Assembly: GCF_014217875.1 (NCBI RefSeq)
Contig: NZ_CP059060.1
Coordinates: 2,294,001 to 2,358,000 of the forward strand
Direction: 5' to 3'
From: Synechococcus sp. LTW-R
GTDB taxonomy: Bacteria > Cyanobacteriota > Cyanobacteriia > PCC-6307 > Cyanobiaceae
Length of the DNA stretch: 64,000 nucleotides
The notes below the pieces were generated by a model. The model worked only from the letters and a program-made list of their open reading frames with translations. It was not told the origin of the DNA and did not search any database. Positions 35,423-44,961 of the stretch are shown one piece after another. Within the stretch, counting starts at the first letter, position 1. Each line of letters opens with the position of its first letter. A program made the position numbers and the translations under genes.

Positions 35423-35917
<495 letters not shown>

Positions 35918-35973: not shown

Positions 35974-36909
35974 TTAGCGGCGTGGACTGACCACCTGACC
36001 AAAGCTGCTGGCGGTGATCAGACCCGGCTGGCTCGCGATGTCCACCGTGAAGGAGCGGGATTCCGCCTGGCTGGTGCCATCGGGATAGACGAAGGTCACG
36101 ACCCCCTGCAGGGTGACCTTCGAGCCATCGCGGTTGACCTCCTGAAGGCTGTCCACCGCCACCCGTTGGAACTGGCTGAAGAAGGCGGGATCGAATTGAT
36201 CGGCGGCCTGGGGGCCGAACAGTTGCTTGGCGGCAGCGGTGTTCCCCAGGGAGATGTCGTCGTAGAGCTGTCGCACGGTCTCGACGGCCTGGTTCAGCTG
36301 CAGTTGCGCTGGATCCGGCTTGGGCTCAGTGGTGGCGGGCTCCGGTTCCGTTGTGGTGGGCTCAGGCGCACTCACCAGGGCAGGTGCGCTGGCAGTGGAG
36401 GGCGTCATCGAGCGGTTCAGCAGCACCATCCAGGTGAGGGCGCCGACGACCCCCACCACGAGCACTCCGGCGATGAAGCTCAGCACCGCCACCAAACCGC
36501 TGTTGGAGCGTGGCGCGGTGCTCAGCGGCGCATCCACGTGCTGCTCGTCGTCCTCCTCGATGGAGCTGGGGATGCTGGGGATCGCCTGCCCATCGGGGGC
36601 TAGGCCGAGTAGACCCCGGAGGACGTCGGCCATCCGCAGGCAGAGGGCCGGGGCGAAGAGGGCATCGAGCTCCTGCTGCAGCCGCAGGTTCAGTTGGGTT
36701 TCGCTGGGTAGGGGCGGCCGCTCCGCCACGGCCTCCTGGAAGGCAGCGGTTTGCACCAGGTGCTTCAGGGCCGGCAGCAGCAGCAGTTCGTTGTCTCCGC
36801 AAAAGTCGCTGAGCAGGGCCTGGTAGCGGCGCACATCACTGCTGATCCCCCGCTCAAAGTCCGCCAGGATTTGGCGCCGCAGCTTCACGCCGAGCTGGTA
36901 GTCGTTCAT
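35974..36909 (-). CDS. membrane protein of the kinase/FHA cluster (helical N-domain, TM, NTF2/IMS-like C-domain)
   Basis: The 311-residue protein has three parts: a cytosolic helical domain (1-105, LGVKLRRQILADFE, then DFCGDNELLLLPALKHLV), one transmembrane helix at about 138-162 (LVAVLSFIAGVLVVGVVGAL), a Pro/Thr/Glu-rich linker, and a C-terminal domain (about 205-311) with the helix-plus-beta pattern of ARC6/IMS-like or NTF2-like domains (AVETVRQLYDDISLGNTAAAKQLF, then alternating strands). The helical N-domain resembles that of the rhomboid-like protein at 43373-44476. It is the last gene of the operon, 26 bases after the PP2C gene. Function unknown; I infer a membrane-bound substrate or output component. 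Confidence 0.7.
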   Translation of the reverse strand: MNDYQLGVKLRRQILADFERGISSDVRRYQALLSDFCGDNELLLLPALKHLVQTAAFQEAVAERPPLPSETQLNLRLQQELDALFAPALCLRMADVLRGLLGLAPDGQAIPSIPSSIEEDDEQHVDAPLSTAPRSNSGLVAVLSFIAGVLVVGVVGALTWMVLLNRSMTPSTASAPALVSAPEPTTTEPEPATTEPKPDPAQLQLNQAVETVRQLYDDISLGNTAAAKQLFGPQAADQFDPAFFSQFQRVAVDSLQEVNRDGSKVTLQGVVTFVYPDGTSQAESRSFTVDIASQPGLITASSFGQVVSPRR

Positions 36910-36935
36910 GGTCGCGCCGTGGCGCGGGATGGCTC

Positions 36936-38060
36936 CTAAGTCTCGCGCGCCGCCTTCCATTGCGCCCGCAGGGCCTGCTCCAGGGCGGGGCAGAGCTGCA
37001 GCTTTGATGAAGCCTCAGGGGCACTGCCGGCAATGAGTGCGCCCAGGGGATCGACCTGGGGTTGCTCCAGCAGCGCTTGCGCTTTGGAGGGTGTGGCTAG
37101 GAGGGCCAGGAATTGTTGCCGCCGTTGCTTGAGGCTGGCCTCGATGCGCTCGGGATGACGGCAGAGCTGCTGGATCTCGAGGGCCAGTGGATCAGCGGGC
37201 TTGAGCCACCACCACAGACCGGCGCCGACCGCCGCCGCGGCCACACCGAGCGCAGCCAATGCGGTGCCCCTGCCGCTGCGGGTTGGGAGGCCCCGCTGGG
37301 CGATCGCCACCGAGACGTCATCACCGCTGCCGCGGGCCGTGATCTCCGCCAAGCCCTCAGCCAGGGCCTCCCCCTGGATCTCCAGCATTTGCACGCAGAG
37401 CTGCAGAAAGTCCGCGTCGGTGGCGCAGGACTTGCGGACCCCATCGGTGCAGAGCACCAGGGCGGTTTCGCTGGGTTGGGGCTGCAGCTGAGCCCGCGTC
37501 GCCCAGGCGCTGAGGGCGCCGCTCTGGCAGAGGCTGAGGGTGGCCTCGCCTGAGGCTTGGCTCAGCTGCTCTTGGTTCACCAGGCTGGCGTCCCCACCGG
37601 CTTGGATCGCCACCAAATCCCAGTCACCGATGCCGGTGCAGCCCCACCACTGGGGCGTGAGCAGGACCACCCCCAAGGTGCAGCCGTAGAGCGTGCTGGA
37701 GAAGGACTCCTCGCCCGTCTTGAGCTGGCTGCTCCAGTGGGTTTCGATCGCGCGAAGCCAGCGCTGTTCAATGGCCGCCGGCAGCTCGCGCTCGAGCTGT
37801 TTGCGCCACCCCGCCTGGTCCTGGAGGGACAGCGTGGCGGCCGTCGCGCCGATGGCCTCTTCTGCCGCCACGCAGGCCAATCGACTGCCGACGTCGCTGA
37901 GGCGATAGCGACTGCCGCCATGGCCGTCGGAGACCAGCAGCAGTCGCAGATCAGGGCTGATGCGGCAGACCCGGGAGGCGTCTTGGCAGGGCTTGTTCTG
38001 ACGCCGGTGGGCCGCACCGATGACGCTGCAATGGCGGCCGGCGGACCAGGTGCGCATCAC
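36936..38060 (-). CDS. PP2C-family Ser/Thr phosphatase with C-terminal membrane anchor
   Basis: Residues 1-255 form a PP2C phosphatase: N-terminal GAAHRRQNKPCQDA, the metal-binding VSDGHGGSRY near residue 43, VLCTDGVRKSC near 205, and GSGDDVSVA near 245. Then follow a transmembrane helix (about 268-288) and a 90-residue helical tail outside the catalytic domain. All metal Asp residues appear present, so it should be active, most simply as the antagonist of the adjacent kinase. It overlaps the VWA gene by four bases (start ATGATG, VWA stop TGA). A second Met follows the first. Confidence 0.9.
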   Translation of the reverse strand: MMRTWSAGRHCSVIGAAHRRQNKPCQDASRVCRISPDLRLLLVSDGHGGSRYRLSDVGSRLACVAAEEAIGATAATLSLQDQAGWRKQLERELPAAIEQRWLRAIETHWSSQLKTGEESFSSTLYGCTLGVVLLTPQWWGCTGIGDWDLVAIQAGGDASLVNQEQLSQASGEATLSLCQSGALSAWATRAQLQPQPSETALVLCTDGVRKSCATDADFLQLCVQMLEIQGEALAEGLAEITARGSGDDVSVAIAQRGLPTRSGRGTALAALGVAAAAVGAGLWWWLKPADPLALEIQQLCRHPERIEASLKQRRQQFLALLATPSKAQALLEQPQVDPLGALIAGSAPEASSKLQLCPALEQALRAQWKAARET

Positions 38061-38788
38061 CAGACCAAGGGCCCGACATCGTCGACGGGATCCAGCAGGG
38101 TCGGGGGCAGATCCGGCAGGGGGATGTTGCCGCCCTCGTCCGCGGCCTCATTGAGGCGGCTGGCGGGCATCGAGGCGGCCCCGACCACGGCGGTGGACGC
38201 CCACTGGATGTACTGCGCCAGGGTGGTGGCATTGCTGGCCTGCAGGGGGCGCCGCGGCGACTTCCCGCCGCCGCTGGGCTCGGGCCCGATGAAGTGCTGC
38301 AGCACCTCCAGGTCCGCGTCGTGGCCCATGGCGATCGCCAAGCGCACGGCCTTCTGGGCCCAAGGCTCCCGCATCAGCTTGGCCAGGCCCGCATCGAAGT
38401 CGTCGGTGGGTTGGCCATCGGAGATCAGGACCAGGACCGGCGGCAGCGCCCGTTCCTCCATCGGCGGGGACTGCAGGACGCCAGCCACCAGCTCGAGGGC
38501 TTCCCCCATGGCCGTGATGCCCCCGGCTTCCAGGTCACGCCACTGCAGCTCCTGCACCGGTGTGGGGTCGGCCAGGTGCCATGCGGCGCCATCGGCGAAG
38601 CGCACGGCCCGCACCAGCACCCGCGCCTCCGGGTTGTGCTCGGCCACCTCCGCCATGCCCGGGAGGGACTGGCGGATCGCCTGGTTCAGGGCCTGCATCT
38701 TGCCCTGGGCGGCCATCGAGCCGGAGCAATCGCAGAGGTAGATGAAGTGCAGCGGGCGGTTGCTGAGGCGAACGTTGGGGAAGGGCAT
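38057..38788 (-). CDS. TerY-like von Willebrand factor A domain protein
   Basis: The 243-residue protein is a single VWA domain of the TerY type with an intact MIDAS: DCSGSMAAQGK (DxSxS) near residue 20, the Thr in AGGITAMGEALELV near 88, and the Asp in LVLISDGQPTDDF near 128. It has a short polar tail. TerY VWA proteins are known to occur in a fixed triad with a PP2C phosphatase and a Ser/Thr kinase, exactly the genes on either side here. It probably acts as a metal-dependent scaffold. Start ATG at 38788, three bases after the kinase stop. Confidence 0.9.
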   Translation of the reverse strand: MPFPNVRLSNRPLHFIYLCDCSGSMAAQGKMQALNQAIRQSLPGMAEVAEHNPEARVLVRAVRFADGAAWHLADPTPVQELQWRDLEAGGITAMGEALELVAGVLQSPPMEERALPPVLVLISDGQPTDDFDAGLAKLMREPWAQKAVRLAIAMGHDADLEVLQHFIGPEPSGGGKSPRRPLQASNATTLAQYIQWASTAVVGAASMPASRLNEAADEGGNIPLPDLPPTLLDPVDDVGPLVW

Positions 38789-38791
38789 GGC

Positions 38792-40114
38792 TTATGTGCG
38801 GATCGGGGTGATCGGCCCGGCCGGGGTGCTGAGCTGCTGCAGGGCCGCGACATTACAGGTTTTGCCCGGCTCCACTTCGAGCCGTTGGCCGTTGGGCAAC
38901 TGGCCCTGCCAGGGGGCATCGCTGAGGTTGCGGAGGCCCACCAGTGCGGCATCCGTGGGGTGGGCGACGAAGACCGCCAGGGGGTGATCGAGGCGTTCAC
39001 CCTGGAGGCCATCGAAGTGATGGCGGTAGAGGGCATTCCCTGGGTGGGCGGCCACCTGTCCCTGGGGCAGTTGCAGCTGCAACCCCCCTGCGTTGCCCTG
39101 ACTGCAGCTCCAGCAGGGGCCGTCTTGGAAGACTTCTTCGCCGCAGTGCTGGCACAGCCGCCGTTGATCCAGGCAGCGCGCGAGCTGCTGTTTCCACTGC
39201 CCGGTTAGGGGGCGTTGGCTGGGTTGCCGCAGTCCGGCGCCAAAGATCGTCTCAAAGAGCTGCTGGAGGCTGCGCGGATAAATCGGCCAGGTGACCAGGG
39301 CCGCGGCATGGTCCTCGGGGTCGGGACGGTTCGCGGGGTTGTTCGGGTCAAAGATGAACAGTGCCTCCTCGCCGTAGAGCCGGCGCCGGGCGGGCTCATC
39401 GAGGCAGCGGATGGCCAGTTCCTGTCGACCGCGGAAGGGGTCGTGGCGGGTGAGCAGCCGAAAGAGCAGGATGGCCAGGCTGAATTGATCGGTGCTGGCA
39501 CTCGGCTTGGCGGCACCCAGCAGCACCTCGGGGGCCATGAAGCCCGGGGTCCCGAGCACGCTTCCGGCCCCCTGGCCATCGACCGCGACGTTGTCGTTGT
39601 CGCAGATCAAGATCGCCCCATCGCCGGGCCGAAGAAAGAGGTTGCCCAGGGAGATGTCCTTGTAACAGAGCCCCTTGAGGTGGAGTTCGTGGAAGGCCGT
39701 GGCCAGGAAGAAGCAGGCCCGCAGGATGTTCTGCAGGCTGATCTCCATCCGCCCGCCGGCGTGGAGATGGGCCCCCTTAAAGCCACTGGGCCGCAGGGGC
39801 ATCAGGTAGCCGAAACCGGGCTCTTGGCTCCGGAGCAGCGGACGACTCTCCGCACTGGGCTCCAGCAGGGCCATCGGCCAGAGGAAGTCGCCGTTGGGGG
39901 CCCCCAGGCGAATGCTTTGCTGCAGGCGCTGCCGCAGCAGCGGGTCCCGGGCGATGCAACTCGGGAAGTACCACTTCAGGGCCAGACCCTCAGTCCCGCA
40001 GCGCACGGCGTAGACCTGTCCCTGGGTGCCGCCGCCGAGGCAGCGTTCGATCTCGAGGGGCTGCTCGAGGCCGTCGAAGGCGAGGCGGCTCCCCAGCGGC
40101 AGCAGGGTGTTCAT
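38792..40114 (-). CDS. Ser/Thr protein kinase with C-terminal zinc ribbon (TerY-P triad type)
   Basis: The kinase domain spans about residues 15-310: glycine loop CLGGGTQGQVYAV, VAIK-lysine equivalent in LALKWYF, catalytic loop YKDISLGNLFL (HRD has become YKD but Asp and Asn are kept), DFG replaced by DND in LICDNDNVAV, and GTPGFMAPEVLLG. After it comes a zinc ribbon CQHCGEEVFQDGPCWSC (CxxC-x9-CxxC, about 335-352) and a small beta-rich C-terminal domain (about 360-440). This layout is the known kinase of TerY-P triads. Start: ATG at 40114 overlaps the FHA gene stop by four bases; the open frame extends upstream but without a kinase-like sequence. Confidence 0.88.
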   Translation of the reverse strand: MNTLLPLGSRLAFDGLEQPLEIERCLGGGTQGQVYAVRCGTEGLALKWYFPSCIARDPLLRQRLQQSIRLGAPNGDFLWPMALLEPSAESRPLLRSQEPGFGYLMPLRPSGFKGAHLHAGGRMEISLQNILRACFFLATAFHELHLKGLCYKDISLGNLFLRPGDGAILICDNDNVAVDGQGAGSVLGTPGFMAPEVLLGAAKPSASTDQFSLAILLFRLLTRHDPFRGRQELAIRCLDEPARRRLYGEEALFIFDPNNPANRPDPEDHAAALVTWPIYPRSLQQLFETIFGAGLRQPSQRPLTGQWKQQLARCLDQRRLCQHCGEEVFQDGPCWSCSQGNAGGLQLQLPQGQVAAHPGNALYRHHFDGLQGERLDHPLAVFVAHPTDAALVGLRNLSDAPWQGQLPNGQRLEVEPGKTCNVAALQQLSTPAGPITPIRT

Positions 40115-40803
40115 CGGGCCTGGGCTCCGAGGGCTTTGCGGATGCCGTTGCGGTGGGCCAGGGCGGTGCGGCGGTTGGCAAAGCCATGGCGCAGGGCGCG
40201 TCCATCGCGGAGCACCACCACCAGGCTGTGGTCCTTGCGGGACCCCAGCACGATCCAGCCGGCCAGGGCGCCGAGTTCCAGGGGCCAGAAGATCAGGGGG
40301 AAGGGCAGCAGCAAGAGGCCCCCAAGGCAGAGCAAGAGCCACCAGCTGAAGACGTGGGGATGGCGAGGCAGGCTCTGCACTCCCGCCGAGAGCACCGCGG
40401 CCAGCTCGACCGCTTCCCCATCCACATCGATCCGGCGGGGCGCGGCGGGTTTGGGTTGGGTTGGGGTGGCCGCTGGCTTGGTCGGAGTGGCCGCGATCAG
40501 CTCGAACTGCAGCACGGGGCCCTGGAGTCCGAGCCGGATCTCATCGCCGTCCTCGAGCTGGCGGCACTGTTGAATCCGTTGCCCTTCGTGGAAGGTGCCG
40601 TCGTTGCTCTGCCACTCGCAGACCAACCAGCCCTGGGTTTGCGAGAACCGGACGACGGCGTGGTGATCGGAGACCCCGGTTTGGCTGGCGAGGCAGAGCC
40701 GATTGCTCGGCGCCTTGCCGATGGTCAGGGGCTGTTTGGGATCGAGGGGCGCGGCTTTGCTGGGATCGCTAGCGAGCAGCAAGCGCGCTTTGGGGGCACT
40801 CAT
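40111..40803 (-). CDS. FHA-domain protein with C-terminal membrane segments
   Basis: The 230-residue protein has an FHA phosphothreonine-binding domain (about 10-105): LTIGKAPSNRLCLAS (the usual Gly-Arg is Gly-Lys), VSDHHAVVRF in place of SRxHA, and SNDGTFHEG in place of SNGTxxNG. A Pro/Thr-rich linker follows, then two hydrophobic segments (about 160-205) and a basic tail. The deviations in the FHA core may alter phosphopeptide affinity. It is coupled by four-base overlaps to the genes on both sides, so it belongs to the kinase operon and probably recruits phosphorylated partners to the membrane. Confidence 0.87.
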   Translation of the reverse strand: MSAPKARLLLASDPSKAAPLDPKQPLTIGKAPSNRLCLASQTGVSDHHAVVRFSQTQGWLVCEWQSNDGTFHEGQRIQQCRQLEDGDEIRLGLQGPVLQFELIAATPTKPAATPTQPKPAAPRRIDVDGEAVELAAVLSAGVQSLPRHPHVFSWWLLLCLGGLLLLPFPLIFWPLELGALAGWIVLGSRKDHSLVVVLRDGRALRHGFANRRTALAHRNGIRKALGAQAR

Positions 40804-41126
40804 CGCTCCCCTCGGCGGCGCGCCCACCACAGCCTCCAGTCATCGCGGAGGTCGTTCCAGAGGCCGCCATCCCCCTCGCGATAGGGAAGGACACGCCCGG
40901 GGAAGAGGACCGCTTTGCTGGCGAGGGCCAGGGCCACGAGCACCATCAGCAGCAGGATCCAGCCGGGGATCGCCCCCACCCAGGTGTAGGCAAAGAAGGC
41001 CCGCAGGGCATAGAGGCCGATCGTGATCGCCAACCAGAGGCGGAAGGGCTCCCAGGGATCCCGTTGACGCTGCACCGAAGGGGGGCTGACGTTGGCTGGT
41101 CTTAGCCTATGGCTGGACTGCAACAC
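40800..41126 (-). CDS. small membrane protein, first gene of the kinase operon
   Basis: About 108 residues with two hydrophobic segments (LWLAITIGLYALRAFFAY and IPGWILLLMVLVALALASKAVLF) and a positively charged C-terminus (LRDDWRLWWARRRGER). The start is uncertain: a GTG at 41126 is chosen because longer forms run deep into the divergent PBP gene and are Arg/Lys-rich noise. It overlaps the FHA gene by four bases (ATGA), which supports translation. No family recognised; possibly a membrane adaptor for the system. Confidence 0.6.
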   Translation of the reverse strand: MLQSSHRLRPANVSPPSVQRQRDPWEPFRLWLAITIGLYALRAFFAYTWVGAIPGWILLLMVLVALALASKAVLFPGRVLPYREGDGGLWNDLRDDWRLWWARRRGER

Positions 41127-43398
41127 CCGCCTGAGCCCCTCCCCTCGCTTGGATCGCTTTGCCTCGCCGGCCGTTCGTGAGGCGTGGGCAGCCTTCGCCC
41201 GGGCAGCCTTCCGCGGACCCTGGCGGGCGCGTCCTGATGCAGTCCGCCGCACCCTGCCGGCGCTGCTGCAGCACCAGGCTCGTCTTGAGCTCTGGGTGAA
41301 GGAGCAGAAGCTCCTGGAGCTCGACCTCGAGACCCAGCGCTATCGCCTCGGCCGGGACCCCTCCTGCGAGCTGCCCCTGGCGGACCCGAGCTTGAGCCGG
41401 ATTCACGCGATTCTCGAGCGCGAGCGTCCCAGCGACCGGGACTTTGCCTTGGAGGACTTCGGCTCCTCGAATGGACTCTTTCACCGGGACCGGCGCATTC
41501 GCTGGATTCAGCTGCGCGACGGTGATGCGGTCCAGTTGGGTTCGCCCTTGAAGGGAGAGGCGCCCGAGTTGCGCTACGTCCATCCCCGCAGCCCCTTGGA
41601 GCAGGCGGTTCGCCTGCTGGGCATCGGTGCCTTGGCGGGTTCAGCCCTGTTGGTGAGCGGCATGCTCCTGGCGGCCAGCATCGGCGGCGGCTCGAGGATA
41701 CGGAGCATTGAAGGCCCGGTCAAAATCTTTGCCGCCAATGGCCAGCAGGTGGATGCCAAGGAGGGCTCCTCCACGGCGCTGCCCTCGCTGCAGTCCTACC
41801 CCTTGCACCTGCGCCAGGCCCTGATGGCCTCAGAAGAGGCGCGGTTTGGCTGGAACAGCGGCATCGATTTATTCGGCACGCTGCGCTCGGCGGTGTTGGG
41901 GAGCGGTGGCGGCAGCGGCCTGACCCAGCAGGTCGCCCGCATGGTTTATCCGGAGGTGGGACGGGACCTGAGCCTGACCCGCAAGCTCCGGGAGTTGTCG
42001 GTGGCGCTCCAGCTGGAGGTGGGCTTCAGCAAGAACCAGATCCTCAAGCTCTATCTCGATCGCGCCTATCTCGGCCTTGGGACCGAGGGGTTTGAGCAGG
42101 CCGCTCAGCTCTATTTCCGCAAGTCCGCCAGCGATCTGGATGTCGGCCAGTCGGCCTTCCTCGTGGGACTGCTCCCCAGCCCGAATGGCTACAGCCCCTG
42201 CAACCTCGACGACCCGGGGGCGGGCCTCGAGCGCCGCAACCTGGTGCTGAAGCTGATGCATGAGCAGGGTTGGCTGAGCGATCAGGGCTTGATCGATGCC
42301 CGGCGCCGGCCCCTCAACATCGATCCCTCGGCCTGCCGGGAGTCGAGCTTCAGCAGCTACCCCTTCTTCAGTGACTACGTCGTTGGGGAGCTGGAGGGCA
42401 CCCGTTTTGGCCTGAACCTCCGGGGTTCCGATGCGGCTGGAAATTATGCGGTGGAGAGCACGATCAACCCCAAGCTGCAGCAGTTGGCGCAGGAGCAGCT
42501 CAAGCGTTTCTTGGATGGACCGGCGGCTTCGGCGGGTTTGACCCAGGGGGCCCTGATCAGCCTGAACACCAAGACGGGCGACATCGTGGCCTATGTCGGC
42601 GGCGGGGATTACAGCCGCTCGAGCTTTGACCGGGTGCAGGCCCTGCGGCAGCCCGGTTCGACCTTCAAGCTCTTTCCCTTTCTGGCGGCCCTCGCGTCGG
42701 GGGTCTCCCCGGCCGAGTCCATCTCCTGTGCCCCTTTGGACTATGTCAGGGGCTGCCGCCATCACACGGGGCTCATCAGCGTGGCGGCCGGCCTGGCCGG
42801 CTCGGAGAACGTTGTGGCCTTGCGCCTGGCGGAGCGGGCGGGGTTCTCCCAGGTGCTGAAAATGGCGCGACGACTGGGGATCACGACGCCGCTGGACGCC
42901 GACTACAACACGATGCTGGGGGGGCGCGAGACCTACCTCTATGAGATGGCCCGGGCCTATGCCGTCGTGGCCAATGGGGGGCGCTCGGTGCCCGTCCATG
43001 GGGTCAGCCGGATTTATGACCTCGGCATTTGCCGCTCGGTGAAAAGCCTGGACCGCTGCCCGGCCCGCGGGGTGACGACCCCCATCGGAGAGCGATCCCG
43101 TCAGCTGATTCGGCCGGAGGTGGCCGCGGCAATGGACCAATTGCTGGCGGGCGTGGTGCAGGGGGGGACGGGCCGCGCGGCCGCGGTGATTCCGGATGCC
43201 CGCGGCAAAACCGGGACCACGAACAACGGGGTTGATGCCCTTTTCATTGGTTATTCCCCCGCCTTGAGGCTGTTGACGGCGATCTGGATGGGGAACGACG
43301 ACAACCGGCCCGCCTCCGGTGCGAGCGGAGGCCTTGTGGCAGACCTTTGGGGTCGTTACATGCAGCAGGCCGCTAAAGCGCTGCCAGCAGCCGGCTGA
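41092..43398 (+). CDS. class A penicillin-binding protein with N-terminal FHA domain
   Basis: A bifunctional PBP1A-like peptidoglycan synthase carrying a cytosolic FHA domain. Order: FHA (about 60-150) with canonical YRLGRDPSCELPL, PSLSRIHA and DFGSSNGLF; transmembrane helix (about 172-200); GT51 glycosyltransferase (about 235-400) with SEEARFGWNSGIDLFG, GGSGLTQQVARMV and RKLRELSVALQLE; transpeptidase with SxxK in PGSTFKLFP near 522, SEN near 565 and KTG in RGKTGTTNNG near 705. The FHA faces the cytoplasm and could read threonine phosphorylation by the divergently encoded kinase. The start is unclear: TTG at 41092 overlaps the divergent gene; TTG 41149 is an alternative. Confidence 0.9.
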   Translation: MAGLSLWLDCNTRLSPSPRLDRFASPAVREAWAAFARAAFRGPWRARPDAVRRTLPALLQHQARLELWVKEQKLLELDLETQRYRLGRDPSCELPLADPSLSRIHAILERERPSDRDFALEDFGSSNGLFHRDRRIRWIQLRDGDAVQLGSPLKGEAPELRYVHPRSPLEQAVRLLGIGALAGSALLVSGMLLAASIGGGSRIRSIEGPVKIFAANGQQVDAKEGSSTALPSLQSYPLHLRQALMASEEARFGWNSGIDLFGTLRSAVLGSGGGSGLTQQVARMVYPEVGRDLSLTRKLRELSVALQLEVGFSKNQILKLYLDRAYLGLGTEGFEQAAQLYFRKSASDLDVGQSAFLVGLLPSPNGYSPCNLDDPGAGLERRNLVLKLMHEQGWLSDQGLIDARRRPLNIDPSACRESSFSSYPFFSDYVVGELEGTRFGLNLRGSDAAGNYAVESTINPKLQQLAQEQLKRFLDGPAASAGLTQGALISLNTKTGDIVAYVGGGDYSRSSFDRVQALRQPGSTFKLFPFLAALASGVSPAESISCAPLDYVRGCRHHTGLISVAAGLAGSENVVALRLAERAGFSQVLKMARRLGITTPLDADYNTMLGGRETYLYEMARAYAVVANGGRSVPVHGVSRIYDLGICRSVKSLDRCPARGVTTPIGERSRQLIRPEVAAAMDQLLAGVVQGGTGRAAAVIPDARGKTGTTNNGVDALFIGYSPALRLLTAIWMGNDDNRPASGASGGLVADLWGRYMQQAAKALPAAG

Positions 43399-44476
43399 TC
43401 AGGGCCCAGCCCACACCGAGGAGGAGTCCCCAGCTGCAGCTCGAGGCCAGCAGGCGTTGCAGGGCGATGCTCGCTTCGCCGGGGTGTTGCCGGGGCAGTT
43501 GCCAGCCCAGTTGCAGGGCTCCCACGACGAGCAGCAGGACCCAGGCCGGGATGCTGAAGCCCAGGGGGCGAAAGACCAGCAGCTTCCACTGCAGGAGGCT
43601 TGAGCCCGCCGCCAGGCCAATCAGGGCACAGACCGGCCCCGCGGATCCGCTCCAGGTGCGTTGGATGGACCAGCGTTCGGCGGCAATCGCGGCTAGGGCC
43701 AGACAGGCCAGCGCGGTGAGGCTGTAGCGCAGGATCACCTGCCCCAGGGGAAGGGGGGAGCCCCCCAAGATGATTAGTAGGACGGCCAGATTCAGCCCTG
43801 CCTCTGCCCGGTTGCGATGCACCCAGGGGGCACTGATCCAGCGCCAAACCTCCCGCGGTCGGCCGGCCTGCTCGCTGCTGAGACTCCAGTGCTCCCGCAG
43901 CCTCTTCCCCCAGGGGCCGACGCCGAGACCGGCGAGGCCGAGGACCAGGACAACGCCCCCGCTCCAGCCCCAGCCCTCGAAGATCAGCCGATCCAGTTCT
44001 TGACCCAACCAGCTCAGCACCAGGGCGCCGCAGGCCGAGAGGGCCAGTCCAGGTGCCAGGGGTTCCAGACGGCGCAGGCTTGGCGTGAACCCCGCAAGCG
44101 GTTCGGGTTGTGGCGCTGGAGCGGTTGGGCGTGGTGCGGCTGTTGAAGCAGGAGCAGAGCGTTCGTTTACCGGCGACTCTTGGCCGCAGACCGCGTCGAG
44201 CAGATCCTGCAGCTCGGCTTGCACCTCGGCGGAGTAGGTCTGGCGGATGTGTGCGCCCAGGCTGGCGCGGGCACTGGCTTGGCTGGCGCCACTCCCATGC
44301 AGGAGTTGCAGCAGTAGGGGCTGATTGGCGAGGTCCCGGATCGGCCCTTTGAGGCCGTCCTCCGCGCCGATGGCATCAATGAGGCGGTTGGCGATCGCCC
44401 GACCGCTCTGGAGCGCCTCAGGGTCCTGGATCAGCCATTGGCGCAGCTGCCTGCCGAGAGTGGTGCCGAGGCCCAT
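43373..44476 (-). CDS. rhomboid-like polytopic membrane protein lacking the GxSG active site
   Basis: The 367-residue protein has a soluble helical N-domain (1-96; LGRQLRQWLIQDPEAL, then IDAIGAEDGLKGPIRDLA), a Pro/Ala linker and about seven hydrophobic segments. The membrane part resembles a rhomboid fold (WRWISAPWVHRNRAEAGLNL is like the HxxxN helix of rhomboids), but where GxSG is expected there is TWSGSAGPVCALIGL, so peptidase activity is doubtful. The N-domain resembles that of the protein at 35974-36909, linking it to the kinase cluster. It is convergent with the PBP gene, overlapping it by 26 bases. Confidence 0.65.
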   Translation of the reverse strand: MGLGTTLGRQLRQWLIQDPEALQSGRAIANRLIDAIGAEDGLKGPIRDLANQPLLLQLLHGSGASQASARASLGAHIRQTYSAEVQAELQDLLDAVCGQESPVNERSAPASTAAPRPTAPAPQPEPLAGFTPSLRRLEPLAPGLALSACGALVLSWLGQELDRLIFEGWGWSGGVVLVLGLAGLGVGPWGKRLREHWSLSSEQAGRPREVWRWISAPWVHRNRAEAGLNLAVLLIILGGSPLPLGQVILRYSLTALACLALAAIAAERWSIQRTWSGSAGPVCALIGLAAGSSLLQWKLLVFRPLGFSIPAWVLLLVVGALQLGWQLPRQHPGEASIALQRLLASSCSWGLLLGVGWALISRLLAAL

Positions 44477-44550: not shown

Positions 44551-44961
44551 TCACTTGTTGAGGGTTGCGGCCTGCACCCGGGCGCGGGCACGGGAAAGGG
44601 CTTGTTGGGCCTTCAGCTTTTCGGTGCTGGCGGCTTGACCTTCGAACTGATTGGCGGCCGCGGTGGCTGCTTCCAGTTCTTTGTTGGCTTCATCAGCATT
44701 GATGGAGCTGCCGAGTTCAGCGGTGTTCACCAGAACGGTGACTTCATCCGCTTCGATCTCAGCGAAACCACCCTGAAGGGCAATGGCTTTCCAGTTGTTG
44801 TTCTCGCGAACCCGCAGCACCCCGTAGTCGAGGGCGGTGAGTAGGGAGACGTGACCGGGAAGGATGCCCAGTTGGCCAGTGGTGGAAGGAAGGATGACTT
44901 CGTCGGCGGGGCCGTCGAAGACGCTCTGGTCTGGAGCCAGAACGCGGAGGGTAAGAGACAT
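44551..44961 (-). CDS. atpC: F0F1 ATP synthase subunit epsilon
   Basis: Epsilon couples the shaft to the c-ring and can inhibit ATP hydrolysis. The 136-residue protein has the N-terminal beta-sandwich (SLTLRVLAPDQSVFDGPADEV, LPSTTGQLGILPGHVSLLTALDYG) and the C-terminal helical hairpin rich in Ala/Glu. It follows atpD by 16 bases; the pair is separated from the main cluster, the normal cyanobacterial arrangement. Confidence 0.97.
   Translation of the reverse strand: MSLTLRVLAPDQSVFDGPADEVILPSTTGQLGILPGHVSLLTALDYGVLRVRENNNWKAIALQGGFAEIEADEVTVLVNTAELGSSINADEANKELEAATAAANQFEGQAASTEKLKAQQALSRARARVQAATLNK

Follow-up and report, generated by a model that had tools for sequence, protein, structure and literature searches.

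A TerY-P-type kinase, VWA and phosphatase cassette beside an FHA-bearing class A penicillin-binding protein suggests a compact switch for cell-wall synthesis in Synechococcus sp. LTW-R

The locus lies in a 64,000-nt stretch of the Synechococcus sp. LTW-R genome (assembly GCF_014217875.1, contig NZ_CP059060.1, positions 2,294,001–2,358,000), here termed the window, within which all coordinates below are given. A first-pass annotation had described six minus-strand genes divergent from a gene for a class A penicillin-binding protein (PBP) with a canonical FHA domain, and their order and strands were found to be right. An eighth gene, at 43373–44476, lies within the same span, was overlooked there, and encodes a probable rhomboid pseudoprotease. 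The features are as follows.

35426–35917, plus strand: flanking PSRP-3/Ycf65 gene, a site marker (Pfam)
35974–36909, minus strand: NTF2-like membrane protein, 311 aa, with a six-helix N-terminal domain, one transmembrane (TM) segment and a C-terminal NTF2-like domain (predicted periplasmic)
36601–36909, minus strand: N-terminal helical (adaptor-like) domain of the NTF2-like protein (profile A5, E 4.7e-31 in its own genome; the row itself is in the profile)
36936–38060, minus strand: PP2C phosphatase with one C-terminal TM segment (hydrophobic stretch 264–285; PP2C_2)
38057–38788, minus strand: TerY-like VWA protein, 243 aa (Pfam VWA; PADLOC TerY; MIDAS residues)
38060–38122, minus strand: conserved C-terminal tail of the VWA protein, P223–W243, with Thr230 and Asp233, behind a variable linker (212–220)
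38792–40114, minus strand: Hanks-type Ser/Thr kinase with a C-terminal zinc ribbon, 440 aa (Pkinase)
40111–40803, minus strand: membrane FHA protein, with the FHA domain followed by a hydrophobic stretch (149–188)
40528–40725, minus strand: FHA domain of this lone FHA protein, with Lys at the Arg position (domain search)
40800–41075, minus strand: small membrane protein, 91 aa (hydrophobic stretch 26–64)
41092–43398 (start possibly 41149), plus strand: class A PBP with a cytosolic FHA domain (Transgly, Transpeptidase, FHA; TM 172–200)
41341–41541, plus strand: canonical FHA domain of the PBP
43373–44476, minus strand: rhomboid-like membrane protein with an N-terminal helical domain, predicted pseudoprotease
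44180–44467, minus strand: N-terminal helical domain of the rhomboid-like protein (profile A5, E 1.1e-33; the row itself is in the profile)
44551–44961, minus strand: flanking ATP synthase epsilon-type gene adjoining atpB, a site marker, which we take to be atpE

The tight junctions claimed for the minus-strand genes were borne out: three neighbouring pairs overlap by 4 bases, and two are separated by 3 and 26 bases. The small membrane protein (smm) and FHA protein (fha) genes, and likewise the fha and kinase genes, share the bases ATGA in 4-base overlaps; the kinase and VWA genes are separated by 3 bases; the VWA and PP2C genes overlap by 4 bases from a GTG start or by 1 from an ATG start; and the PP2C and NTF2-like genes are separated by 26 bases, or overlap should translation begin at the upstream ATG, 36960. 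The kinase gene begins at ATG 40114 and not at the start of the listed 516-aa open reading frame. The start of the PBP gene, TTG 41092 or TTG 41149, is uncertain, which places the divergent gap at approximately 16 or 73 bases.

The kinase matches Pkinase above the Pfam cut-off (9.1e-14), retains K47, D153, N158 and D172 as well as the zinc-ribbon cysteines 321, 324, 334 and 337 in 57/57 relatives, and contains neither a TM segment nor a PASTA match (Pfam; hydrophobicity). The PP2C protein matches PP2C_2 (1.1e-30, Pfam), with metal-site motifs conserved in relatives, and its gene overlaps that of the VWA protein, for which the Pfam match is weaker (VWA 3.9e-05, 24.4 bits against a cut-off of 23.8; VWA_2 1.3e-05, slightly below cut-off). 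The MIDAS residues DxSxS, T and D are nevertheless present in 54/54 VWA proteins. Among PADLOC families the VWA protein matches TerY alone, and weakly (0.0011); four distant VWA proteins also match TerY weakly (2.5e-05 to 0.0024). Scans against PADLOC and NCBIfam yielded no better name for the locus. In composition the locus corresponds to a TerY-P triad, as had been proposed, to which further genes are joined. It shares with described triads (Anantharaman et al., 2012, as cited in PMC11090510) adjacent genes for a VWA protein, a PP2C and a kinase with a C-terminal zinc ribbon; it differs in carrying the small membrane protein, the membrane FHA protein and the FHA-PBP, in the membrane anchor of its PP2C, and in having no DNA-processing gene among those scanned. 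In the accessible part of PMC11090510, such triads have hitherto been tied to tellurite resistance and defence. Kinase relatives were confirmed in 157 stretches, the best 80 of which were taken on; among these best 80, kinases of Halanaerobacter, Methylococcales, Chloroflexi and others are 38–43% identical to that of LTW-R, and many of these distant kinases are flanked by VWA and PP2C genes. Six kinase matches outside the family cover only parts of the model, the longest being 9–348 of 439.

The PBP contains the domains of a class A enzyme (Transgly 1.8e-40, Transpeptidase 2.9e-22, FHA 2.2e-14; Pfam), and its score against the NCBIfam model PBP_1a_fam, 388, is under the cut-off of 508.75. Its catalytic motifs are intact, with SxxK and SxN in 53/53 and KTG in 51/51 readable rows. 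Canonical phosphothreonine-binding FHA domains carry Gly-Arg, Ser-x-x-His and Asn-Gly. The PBP FHA domain has Gly-Arg, Ser-Arg-x-His and Asn-Gly in 54/54 and is, by these residues, of the canonical phosphothreonine-binding type; its closest solved match is Rv1747 (4.6e-05). The lone FHA protein (FHA 7.6e-13, Pfam) has Arg at the corresponding Arg position in 46/55 relatives and Lys in 5/55, and its FHA domain is, judged by the Lys that replaces Arg in LTW-R, relaxed. The small membrane protein showed no match in the Pfam scan.

Phylogenetic analysis (391/733 columns, quick search, SH-aLRT support only) placed the cassette PBPs in a clade of their own with an SH-aLRT of 100; the tree held 57 cassette rows, three of them added from whole genomes, one of which is identical to the window PBP. 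By this tree, the older FHA-PBP of wide cyanobacterial spread is a paralog separate from the cassette PBPs. It has the same FHA-TM-transglycosylase-transpeptidase layout and is 38–41% identical over the aligned region (7 rows), but belongs to a separate clade, has no triad known alongside, and differs from the cassette PBPs, which have Asn for His in what we take to be transglycosylase motif I and Asp for Asn in what is presumably the YLN motif. The first-pass annotation had named wide occurrence of FHA-PBP genes apart from the operon as grounds for refuting its own reading; such occurrence applies to the FHA-PBP family and not to the cassette paralog. An FHA match to the PBP region is found without such a kinase in 29/101 family genomes and in many more of the phylum sample, whereas the cassette-type PBPs in the 101 family genomes have the kinase alongside in 12/12 cases. 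The 42 FHA-positive genomes among the 101 include G029, in which the match is to an ABC transporter and not to a PBP. Since FHA-PBPs are widespread without the triad, the FHA domain need not have arisen for the cassette kinase.

Divergence from the FHA-PBP, proposed earlier as a check across strains, is conserved in 53/54 picocyanobacterial loci with sufficient upstream sequence, including loci at other genome sites; two loci with <600 bases upstream (L090, L097) were excluded from this count, and one with 2173 bases, in which the PBP is seen (L109), was included. Such conservation is the outcome that the first-pass annotation had named as favouring its reading, which is thereby partly supported. 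The laboratory strain Synechococcus sp. WH 5701 (locus L111) also carries the cassette. The operon genes are similarly constant across evaluable loci (FHA protein 53/54, small protein 53/54, VWA 53/53, PP2C 49/49). The sole exception to the divergent FHA-PBP is Prochlorococcus MIT 0701, which has a two-FHA ABC transporter gene nearby on the opposite strand. Of 48 loci with sufficient flank, 42 share one site (psrp3/atp). In a survey of empty sites covering 61 genomes, 56 of which had atpE, 30 atpE loci were inspected; 5 hold the cassette, and in 24 of the 25 inspected loci without it psrp3 adjoins atpE within the 1.5-kb flank. Because the linked loci lie mostly at one ancestral site, much of the linkage can be put down to vertical inheritance.

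It is conceivable, though improbable in our judgement, that an ordinary cell-wall FHA-PBP has been inherited beside the operon by chance and that its FHA domain reads another ligand or none, as the shared site and the abundance of triad-free FHA-PBPs would allow. The remaining 6/48 loci, however, lie away from psrp3/atp, five of them with the PBP, and PBP and operon occur together at other sites in L094, L099–L102 and a further genome (G308/L210). Among the 30 loci holding all nine genes compared, PBP distances track those of the VWA protein (0.84), the small protein (0.83) and the FHA protein (0.68), against 0.51 for atpB and 0.58 for pepP, so that they follow the VWA and small proteins better than neighbouring housekeeping genes; partial Mantel comparisons gave 0 of 500 for the VWA, small and FHA proteins, and the partial Mantel values for the kinase and PP2C were only 0.30 and 0.20. 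The correlation of the PBP with the kinase, 0.57, is no better than that with pepP. The invariance of the PBP FHA residues also argues against chance association, as does the content of the complete LTW-R genome, which has two FHA domains in total, both in the locus, one Pkinase match above cut-off, also in the locus (a second match being ABC1), and one PP2C_2 match, again in the locus. By these searches, the single-copy Hanks-kinase/PP2C/FHA network of LTW-R lies wholly in one cassette. As 11/20 other genomes of the genus have at least two Pkinase matches above cut-off, the single-kinase argument is special to LTW-R.

The stable position between housekeeping genes speaks against another reading, under which the cassette would be a TerY-P system for antiphage defence or stress-induced suicide and the PBP a wall effector fired upon infection. 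TerY-P triads accompany restriction-type systems and TerY-P-like modules act as stand-alone defence in the accessible part of PMC11090510, and the LTW-R kinase matches PADLOC defence-family models (mad6 6.3e-15, PD-T4-6 5.7e-14); these matches, however, resemble general kinase similarity, nuclease and restriction domains are absent from the ten genes scanned, and the synthetic motifs of the PBP are intact. We regard this reading as very improbable.

The NTF2-like gene is present in 23/44 loci with sufficient downstream sequence and is therefore not core. The assignment of its product as an NTF2-like membrane protein holds by predicted structure but not by Pfam, in which VirB8 is matched below cut-off (E 0.02, 15.2 bits against 23.2): the AF2 model has a mean pLDDT of 83.4, and residues 199–311 align to 3b8l with a VIA-align Z of 12.8 (rmsd 2.6, 113 aligned; the VIA rows cover residues 198–311). 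The rhomboid-like protein (Rhomboid 1e-04, Pfam; top Foldseek match GlpG, E 0.15, prob 1.00) has the sequence GSAG in LTW-R, with Ala instead of the catalytic Ser that is present in 30/45 rows, and its family alignment shows no conserved His in the last helix; it is probably a pseudoprotease. Direct hhalign comparison of the N-terminal domains of the two proteins is weak (probability 5.7); a kinship between them is indicated by similar six-helix predictions and by two proteins matched by both N-terminal profiles, in L102 (2.9e-08 and 8.5e-06) and L210 (6.4e-11 and 1.7e-07).

Helical-domain proteins also occur near 10/24 distant triads. Compared with the domain found there, the NTF2-like protein gives a suggestive match (probability 88.5) and the pooled profile a weak one (23.4), whereas the rhomboid-like protein shows no link (0.5). 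Two of the three genomes without a helical copy at the kinase stretch inspected (G461, G471) have four copies each elsewhere. FHA genes are found by profile near 2/24 distant triads (L114, L128), several of these loci being short, which indicates that TerY-P triads are not generally linked to FHA genes. No FHA-PBP was seen near the distant triads in these 24 loci; 254- and 273-aa PBP-profile matches without FHA lie 6–9 kb from the triad in L118 and L130. The FHA genes near related triads encode FHA-FHA-ABC (L098, L128) and FHA-PrsW (L114) proteins, and at L098 one gene stands between the FHA-ABC gene and the divergent arm, the lone FHA and small-protein genes being absent. The occurrence of helical-domain proteins near distant triads, where no FHA-PBP was seen, together with the FHA and small proteins being as consistently present as the PBP, would suit an arrangement in which the operon regulates the membrane FHA protein and the helical-domain proteins, and the PBP is only co-expressed with them from a common promoter region. 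Of the two phospho-readers, however, the PBP FHA domain is the better preserved, a difference not easily accounted for by shared expression only, and we consider this arrangement unlikely.

The interpretation that we favour, and hold to be reasonably probable, is that the locus is a TerY-P-type switch in one cassette with its own output, the FHA-bearing class A PBP. The most likely FHA ligand predicted from the alignments is Thr230 in the VWA tail, in a pT-x-x-D context: Thr230 is invariant (54/54), as is Trp243 (54/54), and Asp233 at +3 is present in 50/54. The tails of L094 and L099–L101 keep the Thr, with the FHA-PBP also kept, and have no Asp at +3; T-x-x-D within the last 30 residues occurs in 6/17 distant VWA proteins, so that the motif alone is not specific. 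The kinase would phosphorylate a partner threonine, most likely Thr230. Both FHA domains, one in the PBP and one in the membrane FHA protein, would bind this phosphothreonine and so assemble these two proteins with the small membrane protein and the VWA protein at the membrane, in a complex that would set the place or strength of peptidoglycan building by the PBP. The membrane-anchored PP2C would undo the phosphorylation, and the NTF2-like protein and rhomboid pseudoprotease, which have related helical domains, may act as envelope sensors or as tethers for the kinase side. We thus infer control of cell-wall synthesis through a kinase-FHA-PBP route.

Actinobacterial PbpA is not known to carry an FHA domain. 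In working, the locus would be closest to the actinobacterial PknB/PstP/FhaA/FhaB/PbpA locus and to PknF-Rv1747. The former comprises fhaA, fhaB, pstP, rodA, pbpA, pknA and pknB and, in the accessible part of PMC6554272, likewise brings together a kinase, a transmembrane Ser/Thr phosphatase, FHA proteins and a PBP; unlike it, LTW-R has a soluble kinase without PASTA, a VWA protein, no RodA-type gene among the ten genes scanned, and a class A PBP with its own FHA domain. PknF and the FHA-ABC transporter Rv1747 are encoded in one operon, Rv1747 is a PknF substrate in vitro, and a kinase gene there adjoins a membrane effector with FHA domains (PMC3908365, accessible part), to which the FHA-FHA-ABC protein near the MIT 0701 triad is a parallel; in LTW-R the effector is instead a PBP, and kinase, VWA protein and PP2C are separate triad proteins. 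No description of this gene composition, and no account of the role of FHA domains on cyanobacterial PBPs, was found in the accessible parts of the open-licence literature searched, which for the composition included PMC11090510, PMC4978471, PMC6554272, PMC7880944, PMC7159879, PMC3908365, PMC6213207, PMC2605481 and PMC2877116.

A broader and more doubtful extension, offered tentatively, is that TerY-P triads of this branch are plug-in phospho-switches for cyanobacterial membrane machines, in which a phospho-Thr230 VWA tail would dock interchangeable FHA effectors (PBP, ABC exporter, PrsW protease), a helical adaptor found mostly with triads would recruit sensors, and the LTW-R network would serve one wall enzyme. 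It is weakened by the ABC gene not standing at the exact place of the PBP and by some helical-domain copies lying away from the kinase loci inspected.

To our knowledge, little is known of the control of peptidoglycan synthesis in cyanobacteria. Because LTW-R gathers its one Hanks-type kinase above cut-off, its one PP2C_2 phosphatase and its two FHA domains in a cassette with the proposed output enzyme, the proposed switch is testable there with few mutants. The locus resembles the actinobacterial kinase/phosphatase/FHA/PBP locus but is built around a different kinase type and, if the proposal is true, would give TerY-P triads a housekeeping-like role and a defined output.

The complete 2.4-Mb genome of Synechococcus sp. 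LTW-R, a relative of picocyanobacteria, has eight genes between the PSRP-3 gene (psrp3; 35426–35917) and its ATP synthase genes (from 44551 on). The first-pass annotation had described six minus-strand genes divergent from a gene for an FHA-bearing penicillin-binding protein (FHA-PBP); this gene set was confirmed, with tight operon junctions (neighbouring genes overlap by 4 bases at three of them and lie 3 and 26 bases apart at the other two), and a rhomboid-like gene absent from that list completes the cassette:

Minus strand, 1st in transcription order: small membrane protein (91 aa)
Minus strand, 2nd: membrane FHA protein
Minus strand, 3rd: Ser/Thr kinase with zinc ribbon
Minus strand, 4th: TerY-like VWA protein
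Minus strand, 5th: PP2C with one transmembrane (TM) segment
Minus strand, 6th: NTF2-like membrane protein
Plus strand, divergent from the operon: class A PBP with an N-terminal FHA domain
Convergent with the PBP gene: rhomboid-like membrane protein

A kinase-alignment scan of genome contigs confirmed 157 stretches, the best 80 of which were taken as loci; 56 are picocyanobacterial (57–78% kinase identity) and 24 are distant (38–43%). Linkage counts are drawn from these best 80 of 157 and rest on the picocyanobacterial loci with enough upstream or flanking sequence. The FHA-PBP gene is divergent from the operon in 53 of 54 such loci, and the arrangement noted in the first-pass annotation is thus a conserved one; the lone (operon-encoded) FHA protein and the small membrane protein are each present in 53/54, the VWA protein in 53/53, PP2C in 49/49, the rhomboid-like gene in 39/45, and the NTF2-like gene in only 23/44. 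On these counts, the core of the cassette consists of the PBP, small protein, FHA protein, kinase, VWA protein and PP2C. The single exception to the divergent FHA-PBP, Prochlorococcus MIT 0701 (locus L098), lacks the small-protein and lone FHA genes and carries a two-FHA ABC exporter on the opposite strand, separated from the divergent arm by one other gene. One locus labelled Bifidobacterium (L093; record title, Bifidobacterium breve MAG) nevertheless holds the picocyanobacterial cassette and psrp3, and is evidently a mislabelled cyanobacterial contig.

Other cyanobacterial triads have other FHA membrane partners, namely an FHA protein together with an FHA-PrsW protease in Pegethrix (L114:6405–8924) and an FHA-FHA-ABC exporter in Chamaesiphon (L128:16341–18860). 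In three loci of Chloroflexi-type records (L122, L125, L132), two kinases of the triad type lie near each other, one of them as part of a longer protein (689–903 aa).

Among loci of the best 80 of 157 with enough flank, the cassette lies between psrp3 and the ATP synthase genes (atpE, atpB) in 42/48 and elsewhere in 6/48; the unit from PBP to PP2C is kept in other neighbourhoods in five of these six, as well as in G308, a complete genome from a different genus in the family. The atpE gene was found in 56 of the 61 family genomes searched, and 30 atpE loci were fetched: the cassette is present in 5 and absent from 25, and in 24 of these 25 psrp3 lies inside the 1.5-kb stretch flanking atpE. Therefore, the cassette is gained or lost as one unit, PBP included.

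The tie between FHA-PBP and operon claimed in the first-pass annotation fails for the family at large and has so far held for the cassette paralog. The kinase occurs in 13 of 101 family genomes, whereas 42, including all 13, have an FHA match to the PBP region. A close PBP adjoins the kinase in 12 of the 13 (the window itself and others of 56–93% identity to it), the thirteenth being the MIT 0701-type genome G029; the remaining matches are distant FHA-PBPs or other FHA proteins (~30–46%). In a tree of 102 rows, a single branch (SH-aLRT 100, length 1.35) separates 57 cassette PBPs from 45 unlinked PBPs. A PBP profile including the FHA domain matches 375/386 phylum genomes, although it also catches FHA-less PBPs; among the matches listed, every one of the window's class starts at model position 6–27, so that the FHA domain is covered, whereas scores are much lower in at least three genomes belonging to this class (G320, G362, G447).

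Both FHA domains of the LTW-R genome are at the cassette locus, as are its one Pkinase match above Pfam's cut-off (a second, weaker match is an ABC1 protein) and its one match to PP2C_2, the phosphatase family covered by the search. When 21 genomes of the genus were sampled (LTW-R and 20 others), 11 of the 20 others had at least two Pkinase matches over the cut-off, 2 had zero and 7 had one; of these seven, only G009 is >90% complete. Given these counts, the single-network state is special to LTW-R and G009 among those sampled genomes that are complete enough to tell.

Across the relatives, the kinase Lys, catalytic Asp, Asn and metal Asp and the four zinc-ribbon Cys are kept in 57/57, the MIDAS residues of the VWA protein in 54/54, and the Gly-Arg, Ser-Arg-x-His and Asn-Gly of the PBP FHA domain in 54/54; these positions are less strictly kept in the lone FHA protein (Arg 46/55; Lys 5/55, LTW-R included; Ser 46/55). 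The transpeptidase motifs are intact in readable rows (SxxK and SxN 53/53, KTG 51/51). The rhomboid-like protein is probably a pseudoprotease, since the catalytic Ser position is Ala in the window (Ser in 30/45 relatives) and no conserved His was found in the last helix among the family rows.

Over 30 loci holding all nine genes compared, PBP distances correlated with those of the VWA protein (0.84), small protein (0.83), rhomboid-like protein (0.70), FHA protein (0.68), kinase (0.57) and PP2C (0.52), against 0.51 and 0.58 for the comparison genes atpB and pepP. Partial Mantel values given atpB and pepP were 0.77 (small protein), 0.75 (VWA), 0.59 (FHA protein), 0.53 (rhomboid-like), 0.30 (kinase) and 0.20 (PP2C), and were reached in 0/500 permutations for each gene except PP2C (3/500). 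This pattern suggests that the PBP, small protein, VWA protein and FHA protein are in mutual contact, and that the kinase and PP2C act on them.

A conserved tail (P223–W243), preceded by a variable linker, closes the VWA protein and is a candidate FHA ligand. Thr230 is invariant in the cassette VWA proteins (54/54) and Asp233, at +3, occurs in 50/54; a pT-x-x-D sequence would be in keeping with the best-known FHA preference, that of Rad53. Among 17 distant VWA proteins, PPT is absent (0/17), a C-terminal DVW occurs in 15, and some T-x-x-D lies within the last 30 residues in 6, so the motif as such could have arisen by chance; the distinctive feature of the cassette set, among the sequences compared, is the invariance of Thr230 rather than the motif. 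A Val-Trp C-terminus behind a variable linker is found in 51/54 near and 15/17 distant TerY-like VWA proteins (L058–L137) and looks like a docking peptide.

A six-helix, adaptor-like domain opens both the NTF2-like and rhomboid-like proteins; direct comparison of the two domains gives a weak match, but proteins of loci L102 and L210 (the latter in G308) match both profiles. A third LTW-R copy (5.2e-13 in a profile search) is on a TM protein whose gene adjoins two trypsin-like genes, one of them of the trypsin-TPR kind (L215:365–5708; G000:C1 ~1036364–1041707); the triads of MIT 0701 and G308 also have such trypsin-TPR genes nearby. A related-looking domain without a Pfam match occurs near the kinase at 10 of the 24 distant loci among the best 80 of 157 (L114, L115, L118, L119, L120, L122, L125, L128, L132, L136), on varied proteins; the four of these scanned were MORN, RDD, DUF1036 and WD40 proteins. 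In the nine genomes seeding its profile, 12 of 14 genome-wide copies are at the triad; in the same search of three further genomes, four copies were located outside the fetched kinase stretch in each of two genomes, and the third genome had no copy. Kinship with the picocyanobacterial domains is suggestive only (hhalign: NTF2-like 88.5, pooled profile 23.4, rhomboid-like 0.5).

From these parts, their conservation and their linkage, we infer that the kinase would phosphorylate the VWA tail or another partner, to which the FHA domains of the PBP and FHA protein would bind; PP2C would undo the phosphorylation, and PBP activity or placement would change as a consequence. Precedents are PknF and the FHA-ABC transporter Rv1747, which are encoded in one operon, Rv1747 being an in vitro substrate of PknF and their yeast two-hybrid interaction requiring both FHA domains (PMC3908365), and an actinobacterial locus grouping PstP, RodA, PbpA, PknA/B, FhaA and FhaB (PMC6554272). 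By the defining features given in PMC11090510, the LTW-R core is a TerY-P triad, here joined to an FHA-PBP. The first-pass interpretation, that the triad kinase controls cell-wall synthesis through FHA binding, is partly supported: it gains from this core and from the conserved divergence, and is weakened by the FHA-PBPs of another paralog that occur without the operon in the family.
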